DNA of 64,000 bases from Micromonospora sp. WMMD1102 (GTDB lineage: Bacteria; Actinomycetota; Actinomycetes; Mycobacteriales; Micromonosporaceae), in the NCBI RefSeq assembly GCF_029626265.1, contig NZ_JARUBN010000001.1:8497001-8561000 (forward strand), written 5' to 3'. The position numbers and the translations under genes were made by a program. The notes beneath the pieces were generated by a model. That model was given only the letters and a program-made list of their open reading frames with translations. It searched no databases and had not been told where the DNA came from. Of the stretch, positions 9,771 to 29,651 are shown one piece after another. How positions within the stretch are numbered: position 1 is the stretch's first letter; every line of letters begins with the position of its first letter.

Positions 9771-9956
9771 ATGCCTGGTAGCGGGCGTGTCGTGGAGTAG
9801 AAGACGGCCATCGTGAGGATCCCTTGAGACGGCTAAGTCAAGATCAAAGGAGAGCACCACGATGGCCGCACCCGAGCCTACCGACCCCGCCGGCTTCCTC
9901 CGTGAGCACCTCGCGTCCGGGTCACCGGACCTGCTACGAGACATGGTGAGCCCTTC

Positions 9957-10745: not shown

Positions 10746-11049
10746 CGGTGCCGATGATCCGTCGGCCATTCATCCTGCTGCCGCATTCGTACGCACGGGA
10801 GAGTGTCATACCTCTCCTTCAGTTCACTGACCGCTACAGTGTCGACCCGGACGCTCAGACAGGATGGCCGAGACCGCCCGCGACACGGCGCTGCGGCGTT
10901 GCCTGGTCTGGAACTCACACGGCCGAAGGGCATCTGGGAGGAAGGGCCTTCCGGCGCAGCGCCTCGAGGACGTGCGTAGGACGGGTACCGCGGGAATCTG
11001 TTCAAGAGCACGACACAAAACCATCAACGTTTCTGGTTAGGAGAACTCT
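10746..11049. other. Intergenic region upstream of the oxidoreductase
   Basis: I find no convincing gene in these 304 bases. Short frames on both strands look non-coding. The segment CACTGACCGCTACAGTGTCGA contains a small dyad (ACTG...CAGT, 10827-10841) that could belong to a promoter. GGTTAGGAGAA at 11035-11045 is the ribosome binding site of the next gene. Confidence 0.3.
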
Positions 11050-11928: not shown

Positions 11929-12119
11929 AGGCGTTTCCGAGGCATGCCGTCGACTCGCTTCCACACCGTCGGGCTGCCACTCGACCTCGACTGTTGCCGC
12001 ATGCTGGGCTCACTCGATGTGGAAGGTTTGCGTCCGTCCTGTGCAACGGAGCCGACTGCCCTTTCCCTCGTAGCGTGGAGGCCAGAACCTGAGGGATAGA
12101 GGTTCATGGCTGGGACGAG

Positions 12120-12479
12120 AAGGCAGTGAGGCCGCTGTTCAACTGGCCGAGGATGAGCGGGCGGAGTTGGCCCGACTGCGGCGGGAGAAGGCCGAGCTGG
12201 CGATGGAGCGTGATGTCCTCAAGCGATCCCCGTGGTCCTGTGGGTCAAGGAAGCGACGGGCCGATGAGCGCGGTGGCCTGCCGTGCGTTGGGGGTGTCCG
12301 AGTCATGGTTCTACAAGTGGCGTGACCGTCCGCCGGCCCGCCGCGGCGACCGACGTGCCCGGCTGGCGGCCGCGGTCGGGAAGGTCTTCGACGAGTCGGG
12401 CGGCACCTGTGGCAGCCCGCGTATCGGGATCGAGCTGCGCGAGCAGGGTTGGCAGGTCTCCGACAACACGATCGCGTAG
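12120..12479 (+). pseudogene. IS3-family OrfA/OrfB junction fragment
   Basis: One frame gives LAEDERAELARLRREKAELAM and ERDVLKRS, the leucine-zipper C-terminus of an IS3-family OrfA. An overlapping frame gives MSAVACRALGVSESWFYKWRD, GGTCGSPRIGIELREQGWQV and SDNTIA, the N-terminus of OrfB (HTH_21 region). The OrfB frame stops at 12479 and its integrase core is missing. The OrfA/OrfB frame offset is normal for this family, which expresses the transposase by frameshifting. The truncation shows the copy is dead. Confidence 0.7.
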
Positions 12480-12564
12480 CTCGATCCCGATTCCGGTATG
12501 GCCGCCCAGGTCAGGATCATCAGGGGCTGCAACAGTTCGTGACGACCTCCACGTCGGATACCCG

Positions 12565-12697
12565 GCGGTGCGGATGCGGCTCGCGGCCCGGGCGGTCGAG
12601 ATGGTCGGGCCGGCGGCGTGGGCGGTCGATGACACCGGCTTCCCGAAGGACGGCAAGGGCTCCCCCGGGGTGGCCAGACAGTACTCCGGCACTCCAC
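12565..12697 (+). pseudogene. IS701-type transposase fragment
   Basis: The frame reads AAWAVDDTGFPKDGKGSPGV then ARQYSGT, which is the conserved first catalytic-Asp block of IS701/IS4-type DDE transposases (VIDDTGFPKKG..S.GVARQY). Only about 40 residues are present. At about 12697 the homology jumps without spacer into an unrelated IS5-type transposase, so the junction is recombinational. Confidence 0.6.
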
Positions 12698-12698
12698 G

Positions 12699-13081
12699 AA
12701 CCTGCAGGTCGCCATCGACGCCCACACCCGCCTCGTCGTGGCCCTCGGCGCCCCGCAACCCGGCAACCGCAACGACACGATCGTCTACCGGACCAGTGGC
12801 ATCGACCAGAAGTTGGCCGGACGGCCGGTCATGACCGATGGCGCCTACCGCGGCAACCCTGAGGTGATGATCCCGTAGCGCAAGCCCGCCGACGGCAGCG
12901 AGCTACCCGACTGGAAGACGGACCTGAACAGGCAGCACCGCACCGTCCGAGCGCAGGTCAAACACGCCCTGGCCAGGATGAAGTGCTTCAAGATCCTCGG
13001 CGACTACCGCCGCGCCGCCCGCACATTGCCCGACATCGCTTCCGGCACTGCCCACCTCCACAACGTCATCCTGGCGTGGTG
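12699..13081 (+). pseudogene. IS5-family (IS112-like) transposase 3' fragment
   Basis: The translation NLQVAIDAHTRLVVALG, QPGNRNDTIVYRTSGIDQKL, AGRPVMTDGAYRGNPEVMIP and QVKHALARMKCFKILGDYRR matches the C-terminal half of IS112-like IS5 transposases, including the second catalytic Asp (MTDGAYRG). A TAG in place of the usual Tyr codon after VMIP at about 12876 breaks the frame, which otherwise runs to TGA 13079-13081. The 5' half is replaced by the IS701 piece. Confidence 0.7.
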
Positions 13082-13423
13082 ACACCAGCACCGTTGCGGG
13101 CAACGCCATCACCGAGTTGCGAGACATCCTTTAGTTAGGCACGGGATCCGTGCAGGGCCCGTAGCGCATAGGTGGCGGCCACGGATGTCCCTGCCACGGC
13201 TGCGGTGACAACCTCGACTTGACCACGCGTCCGGCTCCGTAGCACGGGTGCGTCTCGGAACCTGGAAGGCGTCTCGGTGATATCTGGGTACATCCCGCGA
13301 ACTCCTGGAGGGATGTTCCACCGCCGCCGGCGTTCCGAGGACGCCCGTCAGAGACCCGTCAGGGCGCTACCGCTGACGCGCCGCGGAGGTCGACGCACGC
13401 TTCGAAACAGGAAGGAACCAACC
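13082..13423. other. Intergenic region upstream of the MFS gene
   Basis: No gene is supported here. The frame of the MFS protein is open back to 13277 but reads as Arg-rich non-coding sequence. A strong AGGAAGGA at 13409-13416 precedes GTG 13424. Confidence 0.4.
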
Positions 13424-15028
13424 GTGGCAACAGGAATCGCCGGGCGGTCCGGCGGTAGAGCGGGACGACGGGAGTACCTCGGTTTGGCCGTGCTAGGCCT
13501 GCCCACGGTACTGATCGCGCTCGATATGAGCGTGCTGTACCTCGCCGTACCGCATCTGACCGAGGACCTGGGCGCGTCGGCCCTTCAGCAGTTGTGGATC
13601 ACGGACATCTACGGGTTCGTGGTCTCCGGCTTTCTCATCATGATGGGCTCGCTGGGTGACCGGATCGGCCGCAGACGGCTGCTGCTGATCGGCGCTGCGT
13701 TGTTCGCGGTGATGTCAATCGTGGCAGCCTTGTCGTCCAGCCCAGAGATGCTCATCGCGGCCAGGGCGGGGCTCGGCGTCGCCGGTGCGACGCTGATGCC
13801 GTCGACCATGACACTGCTGCGCAGCATGTTCACCGACCCGGCCCAGTATATGAAAGCGATCGGCGTATGGATGGCTTGCTTCATGGGCGGCATCGCCTTT
13901 GGCCCGGTCATCGGCGGCGTGCTCCTGCAGTATTTCTGGTGGGGCTCGGTGTTCCTGCTCGGTGTCCCGGTGATGGCGGTGCTGCTGCTGTTCGGCCCGC
14001 GGCTGCTGCCGGAGTACCGGAACCCTGACGCTGGGCCGCTCGACGTGGTCAGCGCCCTCTTCTCTTTGGCCACCGTCCTGCCGATCATCTACGGGCTCAA
14101 GGAGTTGGTGCAGCACGGCGCCGGCCCGGTGCAGTTCCTCGCGCTCACGATTGGCGTATCCGTCGGTGTGCTGTTTGTGCGCCGGCAGCGGGTGCTGGCC
14201 GTGCCGATGCTCGAACTGAGTCTGTTCGGCAACCGCACCTTCAGGTCGGCCATCACCATGGTGGTCTTCGGCGGAGTCATGGCCGGCACGAACTTCTTTG
14301 TGTACCAGTACCTGCAGACGGTGCAAGGCCTGGAACCGTTGCCCGCAGCGCTGTGGCTGCTGCCGTCGTCGATCACCATCATCGTCGGGTTGAATATCGC
14401 GCCGCGGCTTGGGCAGCGGATCCGGCCGGCGTACGTCATCGCCGCCGGGCTGATCGTCGTGACGATCGGGTATTTGGTGCTGGCCCAGGCTGGTGACGGC
14501 CCCAGCGGCTTGGCCGTCCTGATAACCGGGCTCGTCATCTCGGGCGTCGGCATCGGGCCGATGGGTGCGCTGGGCGCCGGCCTCGCGCTCGGCTCCGTAC
14601 CGATGGACAAGGCCGGCTCGGCTGCGAGCACGAATCAGGTCGCCGGCGACTTCGGCATCGCGATGGGGGTCGCACTGATCGGCGTGGTGGGCACGACTGT
14701 CTATCAGGATCAGGTTGCCGATCGGCTCCCGGCCGACCTGCCGGCCTCCGCCGCGAACTCGGCGCGAGAGAGCGTCGCCGGCGCGTTGTCGGTCAGTCCT
14801 CAGCTCGGCGAGCCGCTTCGCGGCCAGCTTATCGAGACCGCGCAGGCAGCGTTCACCACGGCAATGCACTATGCCGCGTTCGGCAGTGCGCTCGTCGCCG
14901 TGCTGCTGGCGATCCTAGCCGTCACGACCCTGCGGCATGTGCCGCCAACCGGTGGTGCCCCGGTCGCCGACGCCTCGCCAGAAGAAGCTCCGGCGACCCC
15001 GGCGGCAGCGATCAGCAACGCTGAGTGA
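13424..15028 (+). CDS. MFS drug exporter, DHA2/EmrB-QacA family (14 TM)
   Basis: A 534-residue integral membrane exporter. The N-terminal half shows LDMSVLYLAVPHLTEDLGAS (family motif around TM1), the inter-helix motif GSLGDRIGRRRLL (motif A) after TM2, and a GVAGATLMPSTMTLLR helix typical of 14-TM DHA2 drug:H+ antiporters. About 14 hydrophobic segments can be counted to near residue 505, followed by an Ala/Pro-rich cytoplasmic tail. GTG 13424 was chosen because a strong AGGAAGGA lies upstream; the longer open frame from 13277 adds only Arg-rich sequence. It is isolated between IS debris and the lanthipeptide locus. It may export a small drug-like molecule. A role in the lanthipeptide pathway cannot be shown, since LanT is the dedicated exporter. 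Confidence 0.85.
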   Translation: MATGIAGRSGGRAGRREYLGLAVLGLPTVLIALDMSVLYLAVPHLTEDLGASALQQLWITDIYGFVVSGFLIMMGSLGDRIGRRRLLLIGAALFAVMSIVAALSSSPEMLIAARAGLGVAGATLMPSTMTLLRSMFTDPAQYMKAIGVWMACFMGGIAFGPVIGGVLLQYFWWGSVFLLGVPVMAVLLLFGPRLLPEYRNPDAGPLDVVSALFSLATVLPIIYGLKELVQHGAGPVQFLALTIGVSVGVLFVRRQRVLAVPMLELSLFGNRTFRSAITMVVFGGVMAGTNFFVYQYLQTVQGLEPLPAALWLLPSSITIIVGLNIAPRLGQRIRPAYVIAAGLIVVTIGYLVLAQAGDGPSGLAVLITGLVISGVGIGPMGALGAGLALGSVPMDKAGSAASTNQVAGDFGIAMGVALIGVVGTTVYQDQVADRLPADLPASAANSARESVAGALSVSPQLGEPLRGQLIETAQAAFTTAMHYAAFGSALVAVLLAILAVTTLRHVPPTGGAPVADASPEEAPATPAAAISNAE

Positions 15029-15715
15029 CGTGACGCGTCTCTTGCTCGGGGTGCAACTAATCCGTACACAGTGGAGATGACGGTGGCAGCGCCAACGCAT
15101 TCGTTCAATCGAATCCGTTGGCGGGCCTCCCGCGCCTTGCCGCTACGGTCCTGGGCCAAGACGCGATGCACCCACCCTCTCCAGCACGCTCGACGTACGT
15201 GGGTCGCCGCGGACACCGAAGACATCCGCGCCGAGCTGAAACGCCTGGTCAACCGCCAGATCCTGACCGAAGCCCAACCGGGGCTTGTTCACCCCCACAC
15301 AGAAACAGACATACCTCTCCGACCGCCCTCACAGGTATGTGCAAGCGATCGAGCTGTGGCTGGTTCTCGATCACCGGCTATTGTGCACCGTTTGCCTGGA
15401 TCTTCGCGGTGGGCGGCCGGGCTCGGATCAGGGGATCGCCGCACCACGAGGGCGAGGACACCGGTCGGCACCGAGCCTGCCCTACCTGGCCGCGGCGGCC
15501 CCGAATGCCGAGCGGGCCCGACATCGGCAGACCGACCGCGACCACGGTCTGGCCCAGGTCGGCCGCGCCGGCGAGCGCAAGACCTAATCCAGGTACCGAA
15601 ATGCCGAGGAGCGGATGCTCGATGAGCTTCAGACACCGGCGGCCACAACATTGGAACCCAGGTGATGGTCCGCTCGGAGGTGGACGTGTGGCGCCGGCCG
15701 CACCAACCGGTGCCG
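15029..15715. other. Gene-poor segment with a degenerate HTH-like scrap
   Basis: In the plus strand around 15200-15300 one frame reads DTEDIRAELKRLVNRQILTE then AQPGLFT, which looks like the end of a small winged-helix protein often found near actinomycete mobile elements. It has no intact start and breaks immediately. The remaining sequence up to the lanC stop at 15716 has no recognisable content. Confidence 0.3.
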
Positions 15716-17056
15716 TCAGGCGACGAGCAGAGCGGCGTCCCACCCGGTGACCGGCTTGGTGCCGGAGAGGTAGGAGTGCAGGGCCAAGGCGATTCCGGCT
15801 GCGCCGTCGAGGTAGCCCGGTGTGTCGACTGGCTCGGCGCCCGGACGAGCCGCTCTAAAGGCGAACGGCGCCTGCGGGTCGTAGTTGTCGACGATCCTGG
15901 CGACGACCTGGGATGCACCCTCTACTATCGACCGATCCCCGGCGTCGATACCGATAAGTCGGGTCAGGTGGAGCAGGCCGGCCCAGCCGTGACACAGACC
16001 CGCGTCGATCACCCCGTGGTCGGCGTCGAGGTTCGCCAGCAGGCTCCGGGTCGACTCCTCGGCGACCGCCGTCCAGTCCGCGCGTCCGAGAGCCAGGCCG
16101 GCCAGCTGGATCGCCCTGGCCACGCCGGGCGCGCCGTAGCACCATGCCGATCGTGCCCGGGGCAGCGATGCTGGTCGGCGCTGGAGATTCGCCAGTGAAA
16201 GCACGGCAGGCCAGTACCGCCCGGCGACGTCGGGCTCGCGCCATACCAGGAGCCAATCCACAATCCGGGCGATCGCCTCATCCTGGCCCGGTACCCGCAC
16301 GCCGGCGCGCCAGGCCAGGGACAGCAGCGCTAGGGGCCCGCAGATGCCGTGCGCGAGCCCCAGGTTCGCGTGCCCCTCGTCGCCTTCGTCGTCGGTGAGC
16401 ATGGCCAGGTAGCGTCCGTGGCCGACCCACCAACCCGGCAACCGCGGATCGCCACCGGTCGGCGGCTGGGCCAAGGCGGTGAGATAACTGAGTATGGCGG
16501 TCAGGGCGGGCAGCGGCTCGACGCCTCGGCGCAGCAGGTAACGACCGATGCCGGTAGCGCCGGCGACGACGTCGTACGCGTCGAAGGTGGTGCCTGGGGT
16601 CGCGGACCGGATCCGGGCCAGCTCAGGCCGTAGCCGGACGGGGATCCGGGCTGCGACCCGCCGATCGATGCTCTGGAGCGCTGGCCGGAAGTCGTCGTGC
16701 ACGTCCACGAGGCTGGACGTGGCAAACGCGAACGCGATCGGCCCGACATGCAGCCCGGGCGGTGGTGCGGGACCGGCCGCCATCGTCTCGGCGATCGGGG
16801 CCAGACAGGCGAGGGCTGCCCGGTCGTAAGCATCGTCGGTGTGTCGCAGCTCCGCGAAGAGCAGCGCCAGGCCGGGATATCCCGTGGCCAGAGATGGCCC
16901 GTACCAAGCCGGCCGGGACGCACCATCGCGCTGCGTGCGGGCACTGTCGGCCGCGGCCATCCGGGCTGCGACGGCGGTCGGATCACGAAGCCGACCGGCG
17001 ATGTCGGCAACGATCGCGGCGGCGGCGGTCGTGATGTCGGTCTGACTGTCTGTCAC
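15716..17056 (-). CDS. Stand-alone lanthionine cyclase, LanC-like
   Basis: A 446-residue alpha/alpha-toroid protein of the LanC family. LanC cyclases use a zinc ion, bound by Cys, Cys and His, to activate peptide Cys thiols for addition to dehydrated Ser/Thr. All three ligands are present: SAWCYGAPG (C306) and GLCHGWAG (C355, H356). The 49-residue spacing compares with 46 in NisC (C284/C330/H331). The toroid Gly motifs ATGYPGLALL, GATGIGRYLL, NLGLAHGICGPLALL and YLDGAAGIALAL are also present. The start ATG 17056 faces the precursor gene across a 163-bp gap. No LanB dehydratase gene exists in the window. The cyclase is therefore likely to act on a peptide dehydrated by the two LanM proteins, whose own cyclase sites look defective. 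Confidence 0.9.
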   Translation of the reverse strand: MTDSQTDITTAAAAIVADIAGRLRDPTAVAARMAAADSARTQRDGASRPAWYGPSLATGYPGLALLFAELRHTDDAYDRAALACLAPIAETMAAGPAPPPGLHVGPIAFAFATSSLVDVHDDFRPALQSIDRRVAARIPVRLRPELARIRSATPGTTFDAYDVVAGATGIGRYLLRRGVEPLPALTAILSYLTALAQPPTGGDPRLPGWWVGHGRYLAMLTDDEGDEGHANLGLAHGICGPLALLSLAWRAGVRVPGQDEAIARIVDWLLVWREPDVAGRYWPAVLSLANLQRRPASLPRARSAWCYGAPGVARAIQLAGLALGRADWTAVAEESTRSLLANLDADHGVIDAGLCHGWAGLLHLTRLIGIDAGDRSIVEGASQVVARIVDNYDPQAPFAFRAARPGAEPVDTPGYLDGAAGIALALHSYLSGTKPVTGWDAALLVA

Positions 17057-17219
17057 GCCGGGCGATGCTAGTCACTGAGCCGGATAACCGACAAGCGATC
17101 CGTTGGCATCCAGCGGGGGCCGCGCCGCCCGAAGCGCCGAGAAGTCGTTCTGAAACCGGCAACTGTTCTACTAGCCGACGCACGTGAGACCCGCGTACAT
17201 CCGAGATAGGGAGGTTGGA
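17057..17219. promoter_or_regulatory. Divergent lanC / lanA promoter region
   Basis: This 163-bp gap separates the divergently transcribed cyclase and precursor genes and must hold both promoters. I cannot assign -35/-10 elements with confidence. AGGGAGG at 17206-17212 is the precursor gene's ribosome binding site. No regulator gene is adjacent. Confidence 0.5.
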
Positions 17220-17414
17220 ATGGTGGACGTAGTCCGCAGTTGGAAGGATCCATTCTACCGAATGCGTACCGGCTCCGAAATGGCGGAGAACCCGGTCGGC
17301 GAGGTGCTCCTCGACGAGGAGCTGGACGACGTGATCGGCGGCGCGCACAAGGCGGATTCCGGTGGTGGTGGCGGGTCCGGCGAGTCGAGCTGGGACGGCC
17401 CCCGGTACTGCTGA
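17220..17414 (+). CDS. Lanthipeptide precursor (mersacidin/lichenicidin-type leader)
   Basis: A 64-residue precursor. The leader (about 1-41) has the class II mersacidin/lichenicidin pattern: W8-K-D-P...R, ENPVGEV, an acidic helix LLDEELDDVIGG and a GG cleavage site (40-41) for a C39 protease. The predicted core (42-64) begins AHKADS, continues with five Gly, then SGESSWDGPRYC. It contains Ser at core positions 6, 12, 15 and 16, no Thr, and a single Cys as its last residue. At most one lanthionine can form from this sequence, leaving other Ser free or dehydrated. ATG 17220 has AGGGAGG eight bases upstream; the same frame is open from 17184 but without a better site. A strong hairpin follows before lanM1. 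Confidence 0.88.
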   Translation: MVDVVRSWKDPFYRMRTGSEMAENPVGEVLLDEELDDVIGGAHKADSGGGGGSGESSWDGPRYC

Positions 17415-17463
17415 CCGTCGTCCCGGCTGACGACGCATCAGCTCAGGATCGACAGCCTATGTG

Positions 17464-17505
17464 AGGGATGTCCGGCCTTGTCGCAGTGGCGGGCCGGACA
17501 TCCCT
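17464..17505 (+). terminator. Hairpin between lanA and lanM1
   Basis: A perfect 14-bp stem (17464-17477 pairing with 17492-17505) with a 14-nt loop. No T-run follows, but GC-rich hairpins commonly attenuate transcription or stabilise the upstream RNA end in actinomycetes. Placed after the precursor and before the enzymes, it would yield many precursor transcripts per enzyme transcript. Confidence 0.75.
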
Positions 17506-17534
17506 CTGCTGGCGTGGGCGGATTGGAGGCAAGC

Positions 17535-20500
17535 ATGGAGATGCCGGTGGACGGCTGGCGCGCGGCGACGTTGCGGGAGCGGTTGTCGTTTGGCACGCCA
17601 CCGCCTGGTGCGTCCGGACCGGACCAACGCTACGCGTTCTGGTGTACCCATCGGTGGGCGAAGACCGATCCGGAGCGGATCGCGGACCGGGCCGCCGCGT
17701 TAGGGATTGACGTAGACACCTTTCGTGCCCTACTCGATGAGGAGCACGACGGTTTTGTCGCGCGCACCGGTCGCGTTGCCGCCCCGTCCTGGCTGCGCTC
17801 CGATGAACTCGATGTCCTGTTGAGGCCTGGCCCGCCCACCGTTGGGGAGCGAACGCTCACGGACCTGATCGCCCCCTTGGTGGACTATTACCAGAAGCGC
17901 TTGCGTACCGCGCTCCAACCGGTACTGAATCATCTAACGGCGCAGGAGCGCGCGGAGCTGACGGCCACTTTCCAGGCCACCGCGCCCACTGAGGAGTTCG
18001 TGGCGGCGACCGAGCGCGTCCTGGTGCTCGAGCTGAACGTGGCAAGGGTCCGCGGGCTGCTGCATGGCGACGATCCGGCCGAGCGGTTCGCCGCCTTCCT
18101 CGATCTCACCGCGACCAGCGATTTCCGCCGCCAGCTCTGGGCCGAATACCCGGTGCTGCTGCGCGTGCTCGCCGAGACCGGCCGCGCCTGGCTCGCCAAC
18201 GCCACCGAGCTGGCGGCCAGGTTCGTGGAGGACCGCGACCGGCTGCGGGAGTGCGGCCTGTTGCCGGCCGACGCCGGTGAGTTGCGCCGGGTCGAATTCG
18301 GGAGGGGAGACACCCATCGCGGGGGTCAGACGGTGGCGACACTGCACTTTGCTGGTGCCACCTTGGTGTACAAGCCCCGGTCACTCGCGGTCGATCTCGC
18401 ATTCCAACGGGTGATGGGCGTGCTTACCGCGCACGGGCTGCCGATGGACCACCGCATGCCGGCGACCCTGGATCGGGGCGAGTACGGGTGGTGTGAGTTC
18501 GTTGCGGCGGCGGAGTGCGCTACGGAGCAGGAAGTCGCCGACTTCTACCGCCGGCTCGGGAGCCTACTGGCGGTGTTCCACGCTCTGCGGGGTACCGACA
18601 TGCACGTCGAGAACGTCATTGCGGCGGGACCCCAGCCGGTCATCGTCGACTTCGAGACGTTGTTCGACCCACCCGATCCGATAACTGACAATCCGGCCCA
18701 AGAAGCCTTGGCCGCCTCAATCCTGCGCACCTACCTGGTGCCCGAACAGCTTGTCTTCCGCGACGAAACCGGCCACCTGCGTAGCTTCGACATCAGCGCC
18801 ATCGGCGCCGTCGCGGGTCAAGCCGTTCCCAGCCGCGCTCTGGCGATGGTCGGCGCCGGCACTGACCAGCTCCGATTGGTGGGCCAGCGTCCGGTCACGG
18901 GCAGTTACCCCAACCGGCCTGTCCTGGCGGGCGAGCAACGCGGGCCGGACCGGTACGGCGACGAGATCCGCGCCGGGTTCCGTGCCGGGTACCAAGCCAT
19001 CGTGGCGGCCCGGCCGGAGTTGCTGGCGTCGGGCGGTGTCCTGGCCAGCTTCCAGCGGGTGCGGGTGCGGAAGATCGTCCGGGCCACCCGGCTCTACTCC
19101 CGCCTGCGGGGTCAGAGCCAGCATCCGGACTTTCTGCGCGATGGTAGGGACCGGGAGGTGCTCCTCGACCGGCTGTGGAACATCCCGGGCGACCGGCTGA
19201 CCCAAACCCTGATCCAGTCGGAGATCGACCAGCTCCTTGCCGGTGACATCCCGATCTTCGAGTTCCGGCCGTCCTCGGTCGACCTGGCCGCCGGCGACGG
19301 GTCACTCATTCCGGGATACTTCCCCCGCCGCCCGTACGACGACGTCGTCGACCATCTGTACGGCCTCTGCGACGACGACAGGATTCTGCAAGAGCGTGTC
19401 CTCGAGCTGACGATGGCTACCCTCGCGGAGCGCCCCGCCAACCCGGCACCGACCGAGACAGCGCCTTACCCGGTCGGGCACGGTGCGGGGCGGGCCGAGC
19501 CGGCCGCAGACCCGGCGCGCCTGGTGGACGCCGCCTCGCTGGTCGCCGACCGGCTGCTCGAGGTCCGGATACGCGGCGATGGCACGTCCGGCTGGATCGG
19601 GCTGCGGCGCTACGCCGCGGACGTCTGGACCGTCGAGGCGGCCGGTCTGCGGCTCGACGACGGCCTCGCCGGCATCGGACTCTTCCTGGCTCGGCTCGGC
19701 ATGGCGACTGCCCGAGAGGACGCACTGGGCGTGGCCATGGAGATCGCAGACAACCTCGCGCTGCGCGCTCCGCGTCAGCTCGCGGACCAACTGGCCGGTC
19801 GGCCGACCTCCGAGCCGGAGCCGAACGACACCGGCCTGTTCGCTTCGCTCATGGGGACGGTGGCGTTCCTCACCTCCCTCGCCGACTGGACCGGGGACCG
19901 CCGTTGGCACCCGGTGATCGACGAGCTGACCGCGCACACGGCCAAGCTCTGTGCCGATACGCGGTCGGTCGCTGTCGCCGACGGCACCGCCGGTGCGCTG
20001 TTGGGAACGCTCAGCACCGGTCCGGTGTTCGGGTGGCACTGGGCCGCAACCCGGGCCGAGCCAGTCGGCGACCGGCTCGTGGAGCAGTGGCTCGCCGGTG
20101 CCCAGCAAGGCCCCAACGGACGCCCGGCCGGCGGCGGGCTCGGTCATGGCGCGGCCGGGGTCGCATTGGCGATGAGCCGGCTGGCCACCTATCGCCAGCA
20201 ACCGCGCTACCTCGCCGTCGCCCGAGAAGCGCTCGCCAGTATGGCTCGGGCCACCGACCCCGGCAACGCCGAATGGGGCGGGTGGGGCTGGCACGACGGC
20301 CTCGCCGGCATCGGCCTTGCCGCCCGCGCGATCGTCCGTGACGCCGCACTTCCCACCGGCGATCTGGCGCAGGCCGAGGAGGTCGTGCGGGTGGCGCACC
20401 GCGCGCTCACCGACCGCTGGCACGGCTCGGCACCGCCGGTGCACCACGGGTTCGCCGACGGCGCCTGCGGCGAGCTCATGGCGCTTTCGCTGCTTGGCGG

Positions 20501-20696
20501 CGAGGACCGGCCGCACGCTGCCACGATCGGGCAGCTCGCCGGCAAACAGCGCTGGAAGTGCGGCACGCCGGCGGCGGTGGAGACCCCGGGACTGTTCACC
20601 GGCCTGGCGGGTATAGGCGCCGCTCTGCTCGCGATGGCTAGCCCCCGTCCGTGCGACCCACTGCTGACGCTGACCTCACCGGAGGCGGCGCGGTGA
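17535..20696 (+). CDS. LanM-type lanthipeptide synthetase 1 (zinc Cys ligands replaced by His)
   Basis: A 1053-residue class II synthetase. Residues about 100-650 are the DUF4135 dehydratase, which phosphorylates Ser/Thr and eliminates phosphate. Its kinase-like residues are present: YKPR (K280), DMHVEN (D355, H357, N360) and DFETLF (D372), in the same spacing as in CylM. Residues about 690-1040 are a LanC-like toroid (DGLAGIGLFLARLG, GLGHGAAGVALAMSRL, GLFTGLAGIGAALL). There the zinc-binding WCxG and CHG motifs read GWHDG (H920) and HHG (H970, H971), so both Cys are His. ATG 17535 has TGGAGG upstream. The stop overlaps the next lanM by four bases. Dehydration is well supported; cyclisation by this domain is doubtful or uses an unusual three-His site. 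Confidence 0.9.
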   Translation: MEMPVDGWRAATLRERLSFGTPPPGASGPDQRYAFWCTHRWAKTDPERIADRAAALGIDVDTFRALLDEEHDGFVARTGRVAAPSWLRSDELDVLLRPGPPTVGERTLTDLIAPLVDYYQKRLRTALQPVLNHLTAQERAELTATFQATAPTEEFVAATERVLVLELNVARVRGLLHGDDPAERFAAFLDLTATSDFRRQLWAEYPVLLRVLAETGRAWLANATELAARFVEDRDRLRECGLLPADAGELRRVEFGRGDTHRGGQTVATLHFAGATLVYKPRSLAVDLAFQRVMGVLTAHGLPMDHRMPATLDRGEYGWCEFVAAAECATEQEVADFYRRLGSLLAVFHALRGTDMHVENVIAAGPQPVIVDFETLFDPPDPITDNPAQEALAASILRTYLVPEQLVFRDETGHLRSFDISAIGAVAGQAVPSRALAMVGAGTDQLRLVGQRPVTGSYPNRPVLAGEQRGPDRYGDEIRAGFRAGYQAIVAARPELLASGGVLASFQRVRVRKIVRATRLYSRLRGQSQHPDFLRDGRDREVLLDRLWNIPGDRLTQTLIQSEIDQLLAGDIPIFEFRPSSVDLAAGDGSLIPGYFPRRPYDDVVDHLYGLCDDDRILQERVLELTMATLAERPANPAPTETAPYPVGHGAGRAEPAADPARLVDAASLVADRLLEVRIRGDGTSGWIGLRRYAADVWTVEAAGLRLDDGLAGIGLFLARLGMATAREDALGVAMEIADNLALRAPRQLADQLAGRPTSEPEPNDTGLFASLMGTVAFLTSLADWTGDRRWHPVIDELTAHTAKLCADTRSVAVADGTAGALLGTLSTGPVFGWHWAATRAEPVGDRLVEQWLAGAQQGPNGRPAGGGLGHGAAGVALAMSRLATYRQQPRYLAVAREALASMARATDPGNAEWGGWGWHDGLAGIGLAARAIVRDAALPTGDLAQAEEVVRVAHRALTDRWHGSAPPVHHGFADGACGELMALSLLGGEDRPHAATIGQLAGKQRWKCGTPAAVETPGLFTGLAGIGAALLAMASPRPCDPLLTLTSPEAAR

Positions 20697-23600
20697 CGAC
20701 CTCACCGGATGCCACGCTGCCGTGGTGGCGAGCGACGACGCTGGCCGAGCGGGTCGGCGTGCCGGCAGCCGGTAGCGGGGACAGTTCCCGGTGGCGGTTC
20801 TGGCAGAGCCTGCCGTGGACGTCGGACAGTCGCGTGGTGCACGCCCGGCTCGGTCAGCTCGGGCTCGCCCCGGATGAACTGCGCGCGCTGCTCGACGCAG
20901 ACCCGGACGAGCTCGCCGGCGCGCTCGCGGTGCCCGGTTGGCACCGGTGGTTCACCGATGACTGTGCGCGCACCGGCCAGCCGGTTGACACCGCCGGCTG
21001 GCGGGACGTCGTGGGGTGGCTTGACCCGTTCCTGGACGGTGCCCAACAGCGGCTGCGGGACCGACTGGCGAAACGGTGCGACGGCACCGGCCTGCCCCGT
21101 GAGCTTTCCCGGCTACCCGAGCTGGCCGCCCGCAGGTGGCCCGTACACCGCGTCCTCCGGCCAGCAATCCAGACCGCGATGCTGGAGTTCCACGTCGCGC
21201 AGCAGCGGGGCAACCTGCCAGCACCAGAGTGCCAGGAGAGCTGGCGGGAGTTCTCCACCCGGTTGGCTGGGCGGCAGGCCCGGTGCGCACTCTGGCGGGA
21301 GTATCCGGTTCTGGTCCGGTACGTCATCGAGACGTACGCCGGTTGGGCGGACCGGTGCGCGAGCTTCGTCGACCGGCTTCTTGCCGACTGGCCCGCCATC
21401 CGGGGTAGCGGTCTGGTCGGTCCCGACCCCGGCGAGCTCGTGGACGTCACGGTCGCAGACGACATGTCTCGCTCTGTCGGCATCGTTCGCATCCTCCACT
21501 TCAAACGATCACGGCTGGTGTACAAGCCGCGATCGGTGACCCCCGATCACGGCTTCTCCGCCGTCCTCGACTGGTTCAACGAGGCCGGACCCATCCATCA
21601 GCTTCGGGTTCCCCGCGTACTGGACCTTGGTGACCACGGGTGGATGGAGTACATCTCGTCCGCCCCGTGCCGCGATCGGGAGCAGGTCGACGCGTTCTAT
21701 TGGCGAGCCGGTGTCCTCACCGCGCTGGTGCACCTGCTGCGCGGTCTCGACGTCCATGCCGGCAATGTGGTGGCCGCCGGCGAGCATCCGGTCCTGATCG
21801 ACCTCGAGACGCTCCTGACGCCACAGCCCCCGGCCGACGGTGGCTCGGCCGAGGAGCTGGAGGCGGGCATGTCGTCGGTCCTCGCCACCGGTCTCGTGCC
21901 GTCGGTCGCGCTCTACCGGGACGAGGACGGTGTCCTTCAGCCGTTCGACTATTCCGGGTTCAGCGACGCGGCCGGGCGACCGGCGGCGGTCCGCAACATG
22001 GTTCCGGCGCGTGACGAGCACGGGTGCCCAAGCCTGGTCACCGTCCGCCCGGTCATGCCCGCGTACCTCAATATGCCCGTCCTGCACGGGCAGCGAGTCC
22101 CGCTGGTGGCGCACGAGGACGCCTTCGTCACCGGATTCGAGACCGCGTTGCGGGTCGTTGCAGCGGACAAGGAAGGCTTCCGGGCCGGGCCCCTGCGGCA
22201 GCTGTCGCGAGCGCGGACCCGCTACATCCCACGCCCGGTCCGGGTGCATCTGAAGCTGCTGGCGGCGAGCCTGCATCCCAACCTGCTGCGCGACGGCCGT
22301 GATCGGAGCGTGCTGTTCGAACGGTTGTGGCGCACCCCCAGCAGCGGCGGAGGGCATCCGGCGATTGTCTCGGCCGAGATAGAGGCGCTGCACCAGGGCT
22401 GCGTGCCCGACTTCTCGGTCCCGGCCGAAGACCGATCGCTCATCCTCCCGGACGGCTCTTCGATCGCCGACCACTGGCCGGTCAGCCCGCTGAATCGGGT
22501 CCGGCACCGCTTGGCCGGCCTGGCTGAACCGGACATCCGCCGGCAGGTCGAGACGCTGCGACAGGCGATCGCGACAGTCCGGCCAGCCACCGCCCGGATT
22601 CCGGTCCCGCGCCGCGTCACAGCGGCAGAGCCGACCCGCCAGCAGTTGCGGGACGCGGTGCACGGCTTGGTCCACGAGGTGCTACAGGCAGTCGCACCGA
22701 TCGGTGAGGAGCCGAGTTGGCTCACCTTGGACCTCGTCGACGACCGGATCTGGGTGCAGCACCTAGCTCAACCCGGGTTCCACGCCGGCCTGTCCGGGAT
22801 CGGATTCCTCCTTGCCCACGCGGGTCATCTTGAGCGGATCCCGGAAGCCACCCGGATGGCCGAGCGCATCGCGGATCGCCTAGCGCGCCAAGCCAGGGCG
22901 ATGGCCGACGGGCCGGAACAGGACGTAGGCCTCGGCTGGGGCACCGCTGGCATCGGTTATTTCCTCACTGCGCTGACCGATCTGGCCGGCGACGACCGGT
23001 GGCTACCAGCCCTTGAAGACCTGTGCTCCCGTACCACGCGCGCCCTGGGCGATCCGGTGCCCGCCGATCTCATCGGCGGCGCGGCCGGTTCGCTGCTCGC
23101 GGCGCTGGCCGGGCGGCCGGCGGTTCCGGACTCGCTGGCCCGCGCCCATCTGGGCGCAGCGGAACAGGCGCTGCTACGGGCACTGACAACCCCCCAGCCG
23201 GTGGCGCCGGCGCCACCCGACGCGTCGCTTTTCCGTGGGTCTAGCGGCCATCTCCTAGCGCTCGGCCGCCTCCTGGACAGCGGTCTGGCCGATGCCCCGG
23301 CAGCCGTGGAGGAGGCAGTGTCGAGGCTGTGCCAGCCGGACGCCGACCGGCTGCCCCCGGCCGAGGCGGGTGGGTGGGGCGCCGGCGGGGTCGGTGTAGC
23401 CGCGGCGCGGCTGGCGCTGGTCCACTGTCGGCTGCCCGCACCGGTGGCCACCAGGTGCCGGGAAGACCTCGACCGGGTGCGGGAGACCATGGAGCGCGCC
23501 GGGTTCGAGTCCGACGCGGTCGATGTCTCCGACCTCTCGCTGCACACCGGCCTGTTGGGCAGGCTCGAGGTGCTGCGGCAGATCGCCGCGTACGACCGGG

Positions 23601-23812
23601 ACGAAGGCTTGGCCCGGCGGGTGCGCCGGGCCTTGGCGGTGGCGCTGGAGCACGGGCTCACCGCGGACTGGCCAGGCAGCGCGCCGGGCGGCGCGTTCCA
23701 CGTCGGCTTTGTCACCGGTGTCTGCGGTACAGCCTTCGCCCTGCTGGCGGCGGCACACCCCGACCACCTGCCCGATGTCCTTACGTTCGACGTGGGCCGA
23801 GCTATCAGTTAG
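20693..23812 (+). CDS. LanM-type lanthipeptide synthetase 2 (cyclase zinc site lost)
   Basis: A 1039-residue LanM. The dehydratase half is intact by inspection: LHFKRSRLVYKPRS (K278), DVHAGN (D353, H355, N358) and DLETLL (D370). The C-terminal LanC-like toroid keeps Gly motifs (GLSGIGFLLAHAG, GTAGIGYFLTAL, GFVTGVCGTAFALL). The expected WCxG reads GWGAGG (Gly896), CHG reads LHTG (His951, Thr952) and the usual SHG helix reads FRG. None of the three zinc ligands remains, so this domain is probably a non-catalytic scaffold or peptide-binding module. GTG 20693 overlaps the lanM1 stop (GTGA), giving translational coupling. It is clearly diverged from LanM1, so the two are not a recent duplicate. 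With a single visible precursor, the division of labour is unknown. Confidence 0.9.
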   Translation: MTTSPDATLPWWRATTLAERVGVPAAGSGDSSRWRFWQSLPWTSDSRVVHARLGQLGLAPDELRALLDADPDELAGALAVPGWHRWFTDDCARTGQPVDTAGWRDVVGWLDPFLDGAQQRLRDRLAKRCDGTGLPRELSRLPELAARRWPVHRVLRPAIQTAMLEFHVAQQRGNLPAPECQESWREFSTRLAGRQARCALWREYPVLVRYVIETYAGWADRCASFVDRLLADWPAIRGSGLVGPDPGELVDVTVADDMSRSVGIVRILHFKRSRLVYKPRSVTPDHGFSAVLDWFNEAGPIHQLRVPRVLDLGDHGWMEYISSAPCRDREQVDAFYWRAGVLTALVHLLRGLDVHAGNVVAAGEHPVLIDLETLLTPQPPADGGSAEELEAGMSSVLATGLVPSVALYRDEDGVLQPFDYSGFSDAAGRPAAVRNMVPARDEHGCPSLVTVRPVMPAYLNMPVLHGQRVPLVAHEDAFVTGFETALRVVAADKEGFRAGPLRQLSRARTRYIPRPVRVHLKLLAASLHPNLLRDGRDRSVLFERLWRTPSSGGGHPAIVSAEIEALHQGCVPDFSVPAEDRSLILPDGSSIADHWPVSPLNRVRHRLAGLAEPDIRRQVETLRQAIATVRPATARIPVPRRVTAAEPTRQQLRDAVHGLVHEVLQAVAPIGEEPSWLTLDLVDDRIWVQHLAQPGFHAGLSGIGFLLAHAGHLERIPEATRMAERIADRLARQARAMADGPEQDVGLGWGTAGIGYFLTALTDLAGDDRWLPALEDLCSRTTRALGDPVPADLIGGAAGSLLAALAGRPAVPDSLARAHLGAAEQALLRALTTPQPVAPAPPDASLFRGSSGHLLALGRLLDSGLADAPAAVEEAVSRLCQPDADRLPPAEAGGWGAGGVGVAAARLALVHCRLPAPVATRCREDLDRVRETMERAGFESDAVDVSDLSLHTGLLGRLEVLRQIAAYDRDEGLARRVRRALAVALEHGLTADWPGSAPGGAFHVGFVTGVCGTAFALLAAAHPDHLPDVLTFDVGRAIS

Positions 23813-23822
23813 GAGGAGGACG

Positions 23823-25991
23823 GTGGCCAGAATTCGCTACCAGCCACAAGCCTCCATGGCCGAGTGTGGCGCGGCCTGCCTGGCCATGGTCTTGACGTAC
23901 CTCGGACACCAGGTGAGCGTCCGCGAGATGCGCGAGCGGCTGCGCGTGGGCCGGGACGGCACCTCCGCGCTCGACCTCGTCCGAGCTGCCCGCGAGGCCG
24001 GGCTGACCGCGGAGGGTCGGCGATTTTCCAGTTCAGACCTGTCCCGCGTCGCCCTGCCCGGAATCGCCTACCTGCGCCACAGCCATTTCGTGGTGGTGGA
24101 GCGGGTCAACCGGCGCAGCGCTCTGATCATCGACCCGGCGTACGGCCGCAGCAAGGTGCCGCTCAGCGAGTTCGATGAGGAGTTCGGCGGGGTCGTGTTG
24201 ACCTTCAGCGGCGTGGCGCGGCCCCGCCGCACGCCGCAGCCCGGGCTGCTGCGGTTTCTCCTCGACCAGGCGCCACGCCGCCCAGGTGCGCTCGCGCTGA
24301 TCGCCGCGACGTCGCTGCTCATCACGTTGGCGAGCATGCTTCCGGCGTTCGTTACGGGATTCACGATCGATCACATCCTCCCTCGCGGCTCAACGAGCCT
24401 GCTGCTGGTGGCGGGGCTTGCGTTCGGGCTGGTCATCCTGGGTCGGCTCCTGATCGGCTTTGTCCGCGCGAGTGTGCTCGTGCGGCTCCAGGTGGGCGTG
24501 GACGAGCAACTGACGGACCGGCTGGTCCACCATCTCTTCCGGTTGCCCATGCGGTTCTACGACGGGCGCACCAACGGTGACCTGCTCAACCGGGTGCGGA
24601 GCAACGCCGTCATCCGTCAGGTGCTCACCACCCAGGCCCTGGTCGTCTTCCTCGACCTGATGACCGCGCTGATCTACCTCCTGCTGCTGGTGGTGGTCTC
24701 TCCCGGCCTCGCCGCGATCATCGTGCTGATTGCCCTTGGCCAAGTCACGTTGCTCCTGGCCACGGCCCGTCCGTTGCTGGCTATGGCCCGGCGCGAGATC
24801 GAGTTCGGGGTCCAGCAGCAGAGCCTGGTGCTCGAGTCCCTGACCGGAATCGAGTCGGTCAAGATGTCCGCCCTCGAGGCGCCGATCCTGGCCCGGTGGC
24901 GGCGGATGTTCTCTGCGGAGCTTCATGCGTCCACGCGTCGGCAACTGCTCGAGAGCAGGCTCGACGATCTCACCGACGTCGTGCAACTGGCCGTGACTGC
25001 GGGATTTGTCCTGATCGGCGCGCATGCCGTGATCGCGGGTGAAACGGCGCTTGGTGCCATGCTGACCAGCGCCTACATCGCGGCCGGCCTGCTCGCCCCG
25101 CTGTCCAACCTGACCAAGCAGGCCCGGTCGCTCCAGGTCGTCACGGTGCACCTCGCCCGACTTCGCGACGTGCTGGAGGAGCCGCCCGAGACCGCCCCGG
25201 TGGGCCGGACGACGCGACTGTGGTACACCGAGGTCGAACTGCGCGGAGTCAGCTTCTCGTACGGTGGCTTCGGCAAGCCCGCCCTCCATGACGTGTCGCT
25301 GCGGGTTCCGGCCGGTTCGTTCGTGGCGATCGCCGGCGCGAGCGGATCAGGAAAGAGCACGCTCGCCCGGCTCCTGCTCGGGTTGTACCGCCCGGACGCG
25401 GGTACCGTCCTGATCGGCGGTCGCGATACGACCGCCATGTCCAGGGAAGAGATCGCACGGCACTGCGGGGCGGTGGCGCAGGAACCCGCGGTGTTCAGCG
25501 GCACGATCCTCGATAACATCGTCATCGCGCGCTCGGACGCCAGCGAGCATGAGATCCGCCATGCCGCACGCCTGGCCGAGCTGGACCGGGACATCGCCGC
25601 GATGCCAATGGGCTACCACACCCACCTGTCCGAACGCGGCGCGGGCCTGTCCGGCGGTCAGCGCCAGCGTCTCGCGCTGGCCCGGGCCCTGGTCGGCCAG
25701 CCACGCCTGCTCATCCTCGACGAGGCGACAAGTTCGGTCGACGCCGACACCGAGCTGTCGATCTTGGCGAACCTGCGCACCCTCGGCTGCACGGTGATCA
25801 TCATTGCGCACCGGCTCAGCACGATCCGAAGCGCCGACCGCATCGCGTTCATGGCAGACGGCCGGATCTCCGAGTACGGAACACACGACGAACTGTGCGC
25901 ATGGGGTGGACGGTACGCCACGTTGATTGGCCGCCAGCAGCTACCGATGGGACCGAGTGGCCGATCGCAGACGATGCACGCGGGCTGGTGA
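23823..25991 (+). CDS. LanT-type ABC transporter with N-terminal C39 peptidase
   Basis: A 722-residue bifunctional protease-exporter. Residues 1-130 are the C39 peptidase that cuts after GG leaders: Cys15 in QASMAECGAACLAMVL, the His in LRHSHFVVVE and the Asp in LIIDPAYG form the expected catalytic set. Residues about 160-450 are the ABC transmembrane domain (LLITLASMLPAFVTGFTIDH, LVVFLDLMTALIYLLLLVVV). The ATPase follows with Walker A GASGSGKST near 507, signature LSGGQRQR and Walker B LLILDEATSSVD. GTG 23823 has AGGAGGAGG upstream and lies 10 bases after the lanM2 stop. It would remove the precursor leader at G40-G41 and export the modified core. No separate immunity ABC genes follow. Confidence 0.92.
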   Translation: MARIRYQPQASMAECGAACLAMVLTYLGHQVSVREMRERLRVGRDGTSALDLVRAAREAGLTAEGRRFSSSDLSRVALPGIAYLRHSHFVVVERVNRRSALIIDPAYGRSKVPLSEFDEEFGGVVLTFSGVARPRRTPQPGLLRFLLDQAPRRPGALALIAATSLLITLASMLPAFVTGFTIDHILPRGSTSLLLVAGLAFGLVILGRLLIGFVRASVLVRLQVGVDEQLTDRLVHHLFRLPMRFYDGRTNGDLLNRVRSNAVIRQVLTTQALVVFLDLMTALIYLLLLVVVSPGLAAIIVLIALGQVTLLLATARPLLAMARREIEFGVQQQSLVLESLTGIESVKMSALEAPILARWRRMFSAELHASTRRQLLESRLDDLTDVVQLAVTAGFVLIGAHAVIAGETALGAMLTSAYIAAGLLAPLSNLTKQARSLQVVTVHLARLRDVLEEPPETAPVGRTTRLWYTEVELRGVSFSYGGFGKPALHDVSLRVPAGSFVAIAGASGSGKSTLARLLLGLYRPDAGTVLIGGRDTTAMSREEIARHCGAVAQEPAVFSGTILDNIVIARSDASEHEIRHAARLAELDRDIAAMPMGYHTHLSERGAGLSGGQRQRLALARALVGQPRLLILDEATSSVDADTELSILANLRTLGCTVIIIAHRLSTIRSADRIAFMADGRISEYGTHDELCAWGGRYATLIGRQQLPMGPSGRSQTMHAGW

Positions 25992-26391: not shown

Positions 26392-27953
26392 TCTGTGTAA
26401 CTTCCTATCCTGTCTAACTATCGGACATTGATGGGGATACGGTCTGGGAAGAAGATGTCCAGCGAGTTGAGGGCCTGCTTCCAGCCGTGGACGCCGGCGC
26501 CTTCGACGAGACGGGGCGGTGCCTGTCGGGCCTGGGTGCGGGGTTTGCCGGCCTCGGCAGCGCGTTGCCGGGCTCGTTTGTCCTCGATGTCGGCGATGGC
26601 CAGCCAGATCAGCTTGACCACGGCGTCGTCGGTGGGGAAGTGTCCCCGGTTCTTGATCACCTTGCGGATCTGGTAGTTGAACGACTCGATCGCGTTGGTG
26701 GTGTAGATGATCCGCCTCACCTCGGGTGGGAAGGCCAGGAACGGGGTGAAGCGGTCCCAGGCGCGTTCCCAGACGGCGACGGCGGCGGGGTACCGCTTGC
26801 CGAGCGGGCTGTCGGCGAAGCCGAGCAGGGCCGTCTCCGCGGCTTCGACCGTCGGCGCGGTGTAGATCTCCTTGAGCGCGGTGACCATCGCCCGCCTGTC
26901 CTTGTAGGACACGAATTTCATCGCCGCCCTGATCAGGTGTACCACGCAGGTTTGCACGGTGGTGTGCGGCCACACGGCCTCGATCGCCTCGGGTAGGCCG
27001 GTCAGCCCGTCACAGCAGGCGATGAGCACGTCCCGTACGCCACGGTTACGCAGTTCGGTGCAGACCTGCATCCAAAATTTGGCCCCCTCGGCCTGCTGGA
27101 CCCAGATCCCGAGGACGTGCTTGACCCCGTCCACACCCACGCCGACCACGAGGTAGCAGGCCTTGTTCCGCACCGTGCCGCCGTCGCGGACCTTCACCAT
27201 CAGCGCGTCGACGTAGACGATCGGGTACACCTCATCGAGGGGCCGGGTCTGCCACGCCTTCACCTCTTCCAGGACTTCGTCGGTGATGGTGGAGATGGTG
27301 TCCGGACCGACCTCGGTGCCGTACACCCGGTGCAGATGATGCGAGATGTCCCGCACCGTCATCCCACCCGCGTACAAGCTGATGACCACATCCGAGAGGC
27401 CACCCAGACGGCGGGTGTTCTTCGGCAACAGCACCGGGGTGAACGTGCCCGCCCGGTCCCTCGGCACCCGCACCTCGACCGGCCCGACCTCGGTCTGCAC
27501 CGTCTTCGGCGTGTGCCCGTTCCGCGAGTTCCCGGAGCCCTTACCGACCGGATCATGCTTGCCGTAGCCGAGATGCTCGGTCAACTCGGCCCGCAACCCG
27601 CGTTCGAGAACGGCCTTGACCAACTCCGACAGGAACCCACCCGGCCCGGTCAGCCGCAGTCCGTCACCCTTGACCTGCGCCAACACCGCGTCCATCGCCT
27701 GATCGTCGACCAGATCCGCGACCGCCTTCCGCGCGGCCCGCTTCGCGGCTTCCTCATCGAGTACCGGGCCGGCCAGGGGCAGCCTCGGCCCGTCAGCGGC
27801 GATCCGTTCCCGCACCCCCCCCAGCTCCTCGGCGTCCACCGCCAGGCCCTCACTCCGCGGGTTGATCATCGACATAGTCATCACACTTGTCCTGTCTGTG
27901 CCGACCGGCTCCTACCGGCCATAACGGATATTCCCCTCAATCCGTTACACAGA
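26392..27953 (-). mobile_element. IS256-family insertion sequence, apparently intact
   Basis: A full-length mutator-type transposase gene is flanked by inverted ends. TCTGTGTAAC at 26392-26401 matches GTTACACAGA at 27944-27953, and each continues imperfectly inwards, as is usual for IS256. The exact outer ends and an 8-9 bp target duplication could not be fixed by eye. It is inserted between lanT and a gene fragment that begins immediately outside the right end. Confidence 0.75.
26418..27884 (-). CDS. IS256-family (mutator) transposase
   Basis: A 488-residue transposase. An N-terminal DNA-binding region (LVKAVLERGLRAELTEHLGY, then SRNGHTPKTVQTEVGPVEV) precedes the DDE catalytic core: first Asp in PIVYVDALMVKVRDGG, second Asp in DVLIACCDGLTGLPEAIEAV, and Glu in TTNAIESFNYQIRK. 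The family motif TCVVHLIR lies between them. The C-terminus ends GWKQALNSLDIFFPDR. Length and motifs are those of an intact family member with no frameshift. GTG 27884 and ATG 27881 are both possible starts. This is the only transposase in the window that looks functional. Confidence 0.92.
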   Translation of the reverse strand: MMTMSMINPRSEGLAVDAEELGGVRERIAADGPRLPLAGPVLDEEAAKRAARKAVADLVDDQAMDAVLAQVKGDGLRLTGPGGFLSELVKAVLERGLRAELTEHLGYGKHDPVGKGSGNSRNGHTPKTVQTEVGPVEVRVPRDRAGTFTPVLLPKNTRRLGGLSDVVISLYAGGMTVRDISHHLHRVYGTEVGPDTISTITDEVLEEVKAWQTRPLDEVYPIVYVDALMVKVRDGGTVRNKACYLVVGVGVDGVKHVLGIWVQQAEGAKFWMQVCTELRNRGVRDVLIACCDGLTGLPEAIEAVWPHTTVQTCVVHLIRAAMKFVSYKDRRAMVTALKEIYTAPTVEAAETALLGFADSPLGKRYPAAVAVWERAWDRFTPFLAFPPEVRRIIYTTNAIESFNYQIRKVIKNRGHFPTDDAVVKLIWLAIADIEDKRARQRAAEAGKPRTQARQAPPRLVEGAGVHGWKQALNSLDIFFPDRIPINVR

Positions 27954-29422: not shown

Positions 29423-29518
29423 CTACCGAGTCGGTAGCCACCGATCCAGGAACGGCGGCCCACGCCCGGTGACCGGCTCCAACTCGTACACCTCGGGGTG
29501 GGAAGCCACATCAGTCAT
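29423..29518 (-). CDS. Possible 31-residue peptide gene
   Basis: ATG 29518 opens a 31-codon frame reading MTDVASHPEVYELEPVTGRG and ending PPFLDRWLPTR. Its composition is protein-like (acidic, aromatic) rather than the Arg-rich pattern of antisense frames, and it converges on the small gene at 29171-29419 with three bases between stops. No clear ribosome binding site is present, so expression is uncertain. Confidence 0.25.
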   Translation of the reverse strand: MTDVASHPEVYELEPVTGRGPPFLDRWLPTR

Positions 29519-29651
29519 GGCTCGGTGCCGTGGCCGTTCGCCGCCGATCAGCAGTTTTGCCGCCAGGACCTGCTCCGCCTACCCTCGCCGAAGCCGGGTG
29601 GCGACCACTGCCGCAGCGCAGTGGGTCGGAGACTTCGGGGTGGAGTCAGGG

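Follow-up and report, generated by a model that had tools for sequence, protein, structure and literature searches.

Two LanM proteins without zinc ligands and a stand-alone LanC in a Micromonospora lanthipeptide locus: a candidate for cyclisation in trans

Background

Lanthipeptide classes are defined by the enzymes that dehydrate and cyclise the precursor peptide, and in class II systems a single enzyme, LanM, normally carries out both reactions. How, then, might a thioether ring be closed at a locus with two LanM proteins, neither of which has the zinc ligands of its cyclase half? Such a locus is found in Micromonospora sp. WMMD1102, in a stretch of 64,000 nucleotides that we analysed as a whole and call the window (contig NZ_JARUBN010000001.1; G000:C1:8497001-8561000 of an 8.92-Mb genome). 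It consists of a precursor gene (lanA), two LanM genes (lanM1 and lanM2), a transporter gene (lanT) and, on the opposite strand, a gene for a stand-alone cyclase (lanC).

By examining the catalytic residues of these enzymes and their orthologues, a phylogenetic tree of LanC proteins and the gene neighbourhoods of their relatives, we hypothesize that LanM1, with LanM2 as a kinase or partner, dehydrates the precursor and that LanC closes its single ring in trans, which is probable on the sequence evidence assembled below.

Results

The LanM cyclase halves have lost their zinc ligands

LanM1 and LanM2 both belong to the LanM family: the TIGR03897 model (cut-off 304 bits) matches them with 608 and 449 bits and covers nearly all of each, while the class III model matches at best a stretch of some 90 amino acids (aa), an indirect comparison. 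The Pfam domain DUF4135 (cut-off 29) scores 380.6 bits in LanM1 and 278.4 in LanM2, and LANC_like 59.1 and 48.4 bits. At the three positions where a cyclase has Cys/Cys/His (or Cys), the window's proteins read H/A/D in LanM1 and G/H/T in LanM2.

The same loss is seen in their relatives. LanM1 matches 1245 database proteins, and among the 120 listed three besides its own exceed 50% identity, these being the orthologues P0006 (61%), P0007 (58%) and P0008 from Pseudonocardia humida (55%); the next of the matches listed stands at 38%. LanM2 has three orthologues, on contigs of 7781, 9131 and 25292 bases, the same sizes as for the LanM1 orthologues, which is consistent with (and no proof of) shared contigs. 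At the zinc positions the four LanM1s read H/A/D, H/A/G, R/G/G and R/L/D and three LanM2s read G/H/T, S/H/R and G/D/R, so that the two metagenomic LanM1/LanM2 sets are also devoid of any ligand; in the LanM2 of P. humida (625 aa) the cyclase domain is missing altogether. Since the ligands are absent from all four LanM1s and from all three LanM2s that have the domain, their loss is no accident of one sequence. Among 142 other aligned LanMs, which are top similarity matches and not a random sample, the C/C/(H or C) site is intact in 133. Acid-base residues differ among the LanM1 orthologues as well (A/T/T/A at the equivalent of NisC Asp141, H/E/A/R at that of His212), and LanM2 retains remnants of the SLxxGxLG motif.

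The dehydratase halves are unequal

Catalytic residues were mapped onto CylM by means of PMC4550811 and alignments. LanM1 and its three orthologues have all nine (Asp252, His254, Lys274, Asp347, His349, Asn352, Asp364, Arg506 and Thr512). LanM2 has seven, with Ser in place of His254 and Val in place of Thr512: its kinase residues are kept, and two of the four phosphate-elimination residues are lost. All four LanM2s keep Asp252, Lys274, Asp347, Asn352, Asp364 and Arg506 and read H/N/N/H at His349, but they read S/A/S/S at His254 and V/S/S/V at Thr512, where 141 and 134, respectively, of the 142 other LanMs have His and Thr. CylM T512A is reported not to eliminate phosphate, and H254A to be slowed and still active (PMC4550811); because of the changes at these two positions, LanM2 is predicted to phosphorylate, if at all, yet to eliminate poorly. 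The original prediction, made from the window's sequence alone, was thus right that both LanMs lack the Cys/Cys/His ligands, and its statement that both keep their dehydratase residues holds in full for LanM1 alone.

LanC groups among class I cyclases

The stand-alone LanC keeps the zinc ligands C306, C355 and H356 together with D162, H236 and R302, residues that are invariant in all 22 aligned LanCs, the window's included (NisC and MadC equivalents taken from PMC9889658 and alignments). Its best solved relatives are MadC (8byk) and NisC. In the tree the LanCs of the window, of P. humida and of P0126 form one clade (Shimodaira-Hasegawa-like approximate likelihood ratio test, 100), nested in LanCs that partner LanB, the class I dehydratase. 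Its position among LanCs that otherwise serve LanB suggests that a class II dehydratase system has here taken over a cyclase from class I. The cluster has no LanB, and LanB (PF04738) has no match anywhere in the window; the genome's two LanBs (C1:3280437 and 3887365) lie 5.2 and 4.6 Mb away, each adjoining a LanC of its own (3283397 and 3885137).

When genome contigs were scanned with the alignment of LanCs (as two short patterns), 303 related loci were found. Among the best 80 of the 303, LanB was recognised (with a profile built from four LanBs only) in 61, orthologues of LanM1 and LanM2 in one (P. humida), and neither in 18. Thirteen of these 18 carry a different cassette, described below; among the other five, L046, L099 and L105 have no more than about 0.4 kb of contig upstream of lanC, and L047 and L108 have long flanks, yet a profile search found no LanB, LanM or DUF4135-DUF6624 protein in them.

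The Pseudonocardia humida locus links LanC to the precursor

In P. humida (locus L037) the genes lie on one strand in the order lanA1-lanC-lanA2-lanM1-lanM2-lanT. There lanC overlaps the stop codon of lanA1, a Cys-containing homologue of the window's lanA, and is collinear with lanM1-lanM2-lanT, an arrangement that, as read from the sequence, connects LanC with this family of precursors and with the same enzymes.

The window's precursor consists of the leader MVDVVRSWKDPFYRMRTGSEMAENPVGEVLLDEELDDVIGG and the core AHKADSGGGGGSGESSWDGPRYC. With four Ser, no Thr and a single Cys (Cys23, at the C-terminus), the core allows at most one thioether ring. The leader ends in ...NPVGEVLLDEELDDVIGG, of the double-glycine (GG) type, and is not of the FDLD/FNLD type of class I. 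A pattern WKDPF...GGAHKADSGGGGG is common to LanA and its two L037 homologues. In a similarity search with lanA, the gene itself was the sole strong match in its own genome (E 1.3e-40; the next of seven, E 0.113), which makes one precursor found by similarity to lanA, precursors unlike lanA falling outside that search.

The original prediction described the LanC as divergent and retaining C306, C355 and H356, with no LanB present, and both statements are confirmed. It also named a LanC that belongs to a different precursor as the finding that would overturn it, a prospect weakened by the P. humida gene order and by the LanB-LanC pairs in the same genome. As to LanM neighbours, L037 has LanC beside LanM1 and LanM2, and three other zinc-less LanMs (see Discussion) have none within about 8 kb. 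The prediction had overlooked the precursor lanA, the changes at the elimination site of LanM2 and the derivation of LanC from class I.

Distribution

LanM1 is patchily distributed. It has no match in six genomes of the same genus (G001-G006), and 17 of 61 genomes searched matched, the window's own included. A LanM1 profile was run against two overlapping sets of genomes, 397 from the window's order and 390 from family f15 (two candidates scored per genome): 69 and 170 genomes, respectively, had any match, and only the window and G652 exceeded 560 bits. G652 was rejected as a further orthologue, a stretch of 6,090 bases from it being identical to L037 and hence P. humida again. Matches to LanM1 were found in 189 of 72,556 plasmid records, all below 60% identity. 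Other tandem LanM pairs were rejected as the same system, as the members read (both of G021 and one each of G299, G338 and G350) keep CHG/CHG. The Micromonospora genome has a third LanM (C1:3132510-3134663; L031, L143), an 884-aa frame in which the zinc ligands are also absent.

A second LanB-less setting for related LanCs

The cassette at the 13 loci mentioned above, all from Streptomyces or Nonomuraea (L040-L044, L048, L049, L053, L054, L056, L062, L064 and L097; for example L041:4595-11275), comprises a conserved precursor followed by a DUF4135-DUF6624 protein with no cyclase domain, JmjC/cupin-like proteins (a label from reading the sequence; the one protein tested had no Pfam match) and a stand-alone LanC. 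No LanB was found in the available sequence of any of these loci. The precursor reads ...FDLVIGDLE(Q/L)EIPPLASPTNSGSGTACG(T/S)CA(G/S)xYCC, its core ending in SPTNSGSGTACG(T/S)CA(G/S)xYCC. DUF4135 was identified with Pfam in two of the 13 proteins (56.5 and 54.0 bits) and by similarity in the others; all 13 keep seven of the nine CylM residues, with Glu in place of Asp252 and Ile in place of His349. Given these 13 LanB-less loci, in which LanC is paired with a DUF4135-DUF6624 protein, it may be that this clade of LanCs acquired a DUF4135 dehydratase as a partner in trans on two or more occasions.

Gene arrangement and neighbouring genes

The features of both loci are collected in Table 1. The region between lanA and lanM1 (17415-17534), which spans the inverted repeat, has a fold z-score of -3.59; the repeat is possibly a read-through attenuator (a guess) or an mRNA-processing hairpin. 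A promoter scan gave no candidate. Among the neighbouring genes, the efflux transporter adjoining lanC possibly serves in self-protection, the transposase just downstream of lanT hints that the edge of the region is mobile, and the large regulators possibly control the pathway; the ion-channel and methyltransferase genes downstream have no evident link to the cluster.

Table 1. Features of the window and of the P. humida locus L037 (NZ_JAGSOV010000101.1)
Locus	Feature	Position	Strand	Description
Window	BTAD/NB-ARC/TPR regulator	2117-5086		large, SARP-like
Window	LuxR-type regulator	5604-8327		large
Window	efflux transporter	13277-15028		major facilitator superfamily (MFS); best NCBIfam models QepA and LfrA, below cut-offs
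Window	lanC	15716..17056	-	stand-alone lanthionine cyclase, 446 aa, class I clade; Pfam LANC_like 145.6 bits
Window	lanA	17220..17414	+	precursor, 64 aa, GG-type leader, core AHKADSGGGGGSGESSWDGPRYC
Window	inverted repeat	17463..17506	+	perfect, 15-nt arms, 14-nt gap; between lanA and lanM1
Window	lanM1	17535..20696	+	class II dehydratase, 1053 aa, likely start ATG 17535; zinc ligands absent
Window	lanM2	20693..23812	+	LanM paralogue, 1039 aa, likely start GTG 20693, overlapping the lanM1 stop (GTGA)
Window	lanT	23823..25991	+	C39-peptidase ABC transporter, 722 aa, likely GTG start 23823 after AGGAGGAGG; Pfam Peptidase_C39, ABC_membrane, ABC_tran
Window	transposase	26418-27884		IS256 family (Mutator)
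Window	ion-channel protein	29469-30494
Window	S-adenosyl methyltransferase	33187-34023		PF04672
L037	lanA1	8657-8851		core AHKADSGGGGGGSTTSWNAGARAC, Cys-containing, homologous to window lanA
L037	lanC	8851-10107		overlaps lanA1 stop by one base (TGATG)
L037	lanA2	10204-10404		core AHKADSGGGGGTGIGAGSSWSVAHPG, no Cys; leader type and core start as lanA1
L037	lanM1	10472-13570
L037	lanM2	13567-15444		GTGA overlap with lanM1
L037	lanT	15441-17649		GTGA overlap with lanM2

Discussion

The model put forward in the original prediction, dehydration by LanM followed by cyclisation by LanC in trans, is the one that the evidence supports best. In its present form LanM1 would phosphorylate Ser residues of the core and eliminate the phosphate to give dehydroalanines, and LanM2, which appears impaired in elimination, would join it as an extra kinase or as a non-catalytic partner. 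The zinc enzyme LanC would then add Cys23 to a dehydroalanine to form one thioether ring, the ring partner most likely being Ser16, or else Ser15, beside a Trp common to P. humida; LanT, judging by its family, would remove the leader at GG and export the product. We infer these reactions, the ring partner, the role of LanM2 and the division of labour as a whole from sequence. A fully split synthetase, in which LanM2 is a Ser kinase without elimination, LanM1 eliminates and shares the phosphorylation, and the class I LanC cyclises, is a more doubtful proposition.

Several observations weigh against cyclisation by LanC in trans. The window's lanC is divergent and lies outside the operon, and only two complete loci have been read (those of the window and P. 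humida), the metagenomic sets being known from their LanM sequences. The second P. humida precursor, without Cys, speaks against a simple picture of one precursor and one ring: not every substrate therefore needs a cyclase, and lanA2 may give a dehydrated-only peptide or be a degenerate copy. A profile search found no LanC within about 8 kb of any of three other zinc-less LanMs (L016, L024 and the genome's own at C1:3132510), so loss of the ligands does not by itself predict a LanC. The cyclase barrels of both LanMs are predicted by AlphaFold to be folded and the equivalent of NisC Asp141 is still Asp in all three LanM2 cyclase halves, and class III is reported to have LanC-like domains that need no metal (PMC10604976), which makes residual cyclase activity of the LanMs conceivable.

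These last points lead to the main rival explanation, that LanM1 or LanM2 cyclises without zinc in the manner of a class III LanKC while LanC is auxiliary or acts elsewhere. ThurKC is reported to cyclise with Ser/Phe/Asp at the ligand positions (PMC10604976), and LanM1 of the window and LanM1 of P. humida likewise have Asp at the third position; the two metagenomic LanM1s, however, have Gly there, and none of the four has the Phe. A conserved catalytic set would be expected were cyclisation under selection, but the acid-base residues drift among the LanM1 orthologues and LanM2 of P. humida is entirely without a cyclase domain, and we consider this explanation unlikely. It is quite unlikely that LanC has nothing to do with this precursor and is left over or serves another, class I precursor: its divergent orientation would suit such a role, and its relatives in the tree adjoin LanBs near which there are open reading frames with class I-type leaders and several Cys, but the overlap of lanC with the homologous precursor gene in P. 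humida, its collinearity there with lanM1-lanM2-lanT, the separate clade formed by the LanCs of the window, P. humida and P0126, and the prior pairing of the genome's two LanBs with their own LanCs argue otherwise.

The product might instead be a dehydrated peptide with no ring, or an optional one, as from the LanM-type dehydratases of dehydrazoles, in which a zinc-less DUF4135 enzyme is reported as the dehydratase (PMC10676384). The single core Cys and its absence from the second P. humida precursor would fit; against this, the C-terminal Cys is kept in the window's lanA and P. humida lanA1, a LanC with a full active site is retained beside a Cys-containing precursor, and no YcaO was found among the 19 window open reading frames scanned with Pfam, all of which makes an unringed product very unlikely. 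Nor is the cluster at all likely to be decaying, with the LanM cyclase halves as pseudo-domains of a dying pathway. In 9 pairs the cyclase halves do diverge somewhat faster, by 4-11 points, than the dehydratase halves (against a mean of 1.6, sd 3.7, in 1237 control pairs) and an IS256 transposase lies just downstream, but the frames are open in both the window and P. humida, and LanM1 has nine of nine dehydratase residues in four sequences, three of which are 55-61% identical to the window's.

If LanC does act on the LanM-dehydrated precursor, the class-defining rule would be broken in nature by a class II dehydratase that relies on a class I cyclase. It would also be shown that, given a LanC in trans, a LanM can lose its own cyclase, as far as outright deletion in P. 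humida LanM2. Were the fully split version true, three steps that usually belong to one LanM polypeptide would be passed between three proteins and, together with the DUF4135-DUF6624 cassette, a DUF4135 dehydratase with LanC in trans would be a recurrent architecture alongside classes I and II. The locus would offer a natural, testable system for asking how dehydratases, cyclases and leader types come to fit one another, and its parts, being separable, could serve to make peptides with a single ring. Genome mining by Pfam neighbours would file it as an ordinary class II cluster.

Comparison with known systems

We found no description of a zinc-less LanM pair with a LanC in the open-access literature, consulted mostly at the level of titles and abstracts. 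Zinc-less LanM-type dehydratases are already in print for the dehydrazoles (PMC10676384). Related material includes 47 predicted peptides with a DUF4135 dehydratase and an undefined cyclase triad (PMC11251773) and an area of Prevotella multisaccharivorax with LanM-like and LanC-like proteins, for which the available part of PMC10352776 gives no residue detail. LanBC systems with GG leaders are reported (PMC3951391), as is the grouping of actinobacterial LanM cyclase domains with LanCs, along with a precursor family II 28 (PMC7268733); that family might, at a guess, be the DUF4135-DUF6624 cassette.

The locus shares features with several known systems and is identical to none of these. The dehydrazole LanMbC enzyme CcaM likewise combines a dehydrating DUF4135 domain with a zinc-less LanC-like domain, but it is described with YcaO partners and a cyclase domain of class III type (PMC10676384), whereas here there is no YcaO in the scanned frames, a LanC is present and the LanM halves look like degenerate class II cyclases. 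Clusters of the salivaricin type also mix class I and class II parts, a LanC with a GG leader and a C39 LanT, but their dehydratase is reported to be LanB (PMC3951391), not LanM. Two-component class II lantibiotics have two LanM genes, as here, and P. humida has two precursors; unlike them, the window has one precursor found and both of its LanMs are zinc-less, and the two precursors of P. humida are alike in leader and in the start of the core, in contrast to the two dissimilar partners of those systems. The LanC resembles the class I enzymes NisC and MadC in standing alone, in having all catalytic residues and in grouping among LanB-partnered actinobacterial LanCs, and differs in its setting: no LanB, a GG leader and a single-Cys substrate. 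In comparison with the class II enzymes CylM and LicM2, both LanMs are without zinc ligands and LanM2 also without two elimination residues, and cyclisation is assigned, probably, to the separate LanC.

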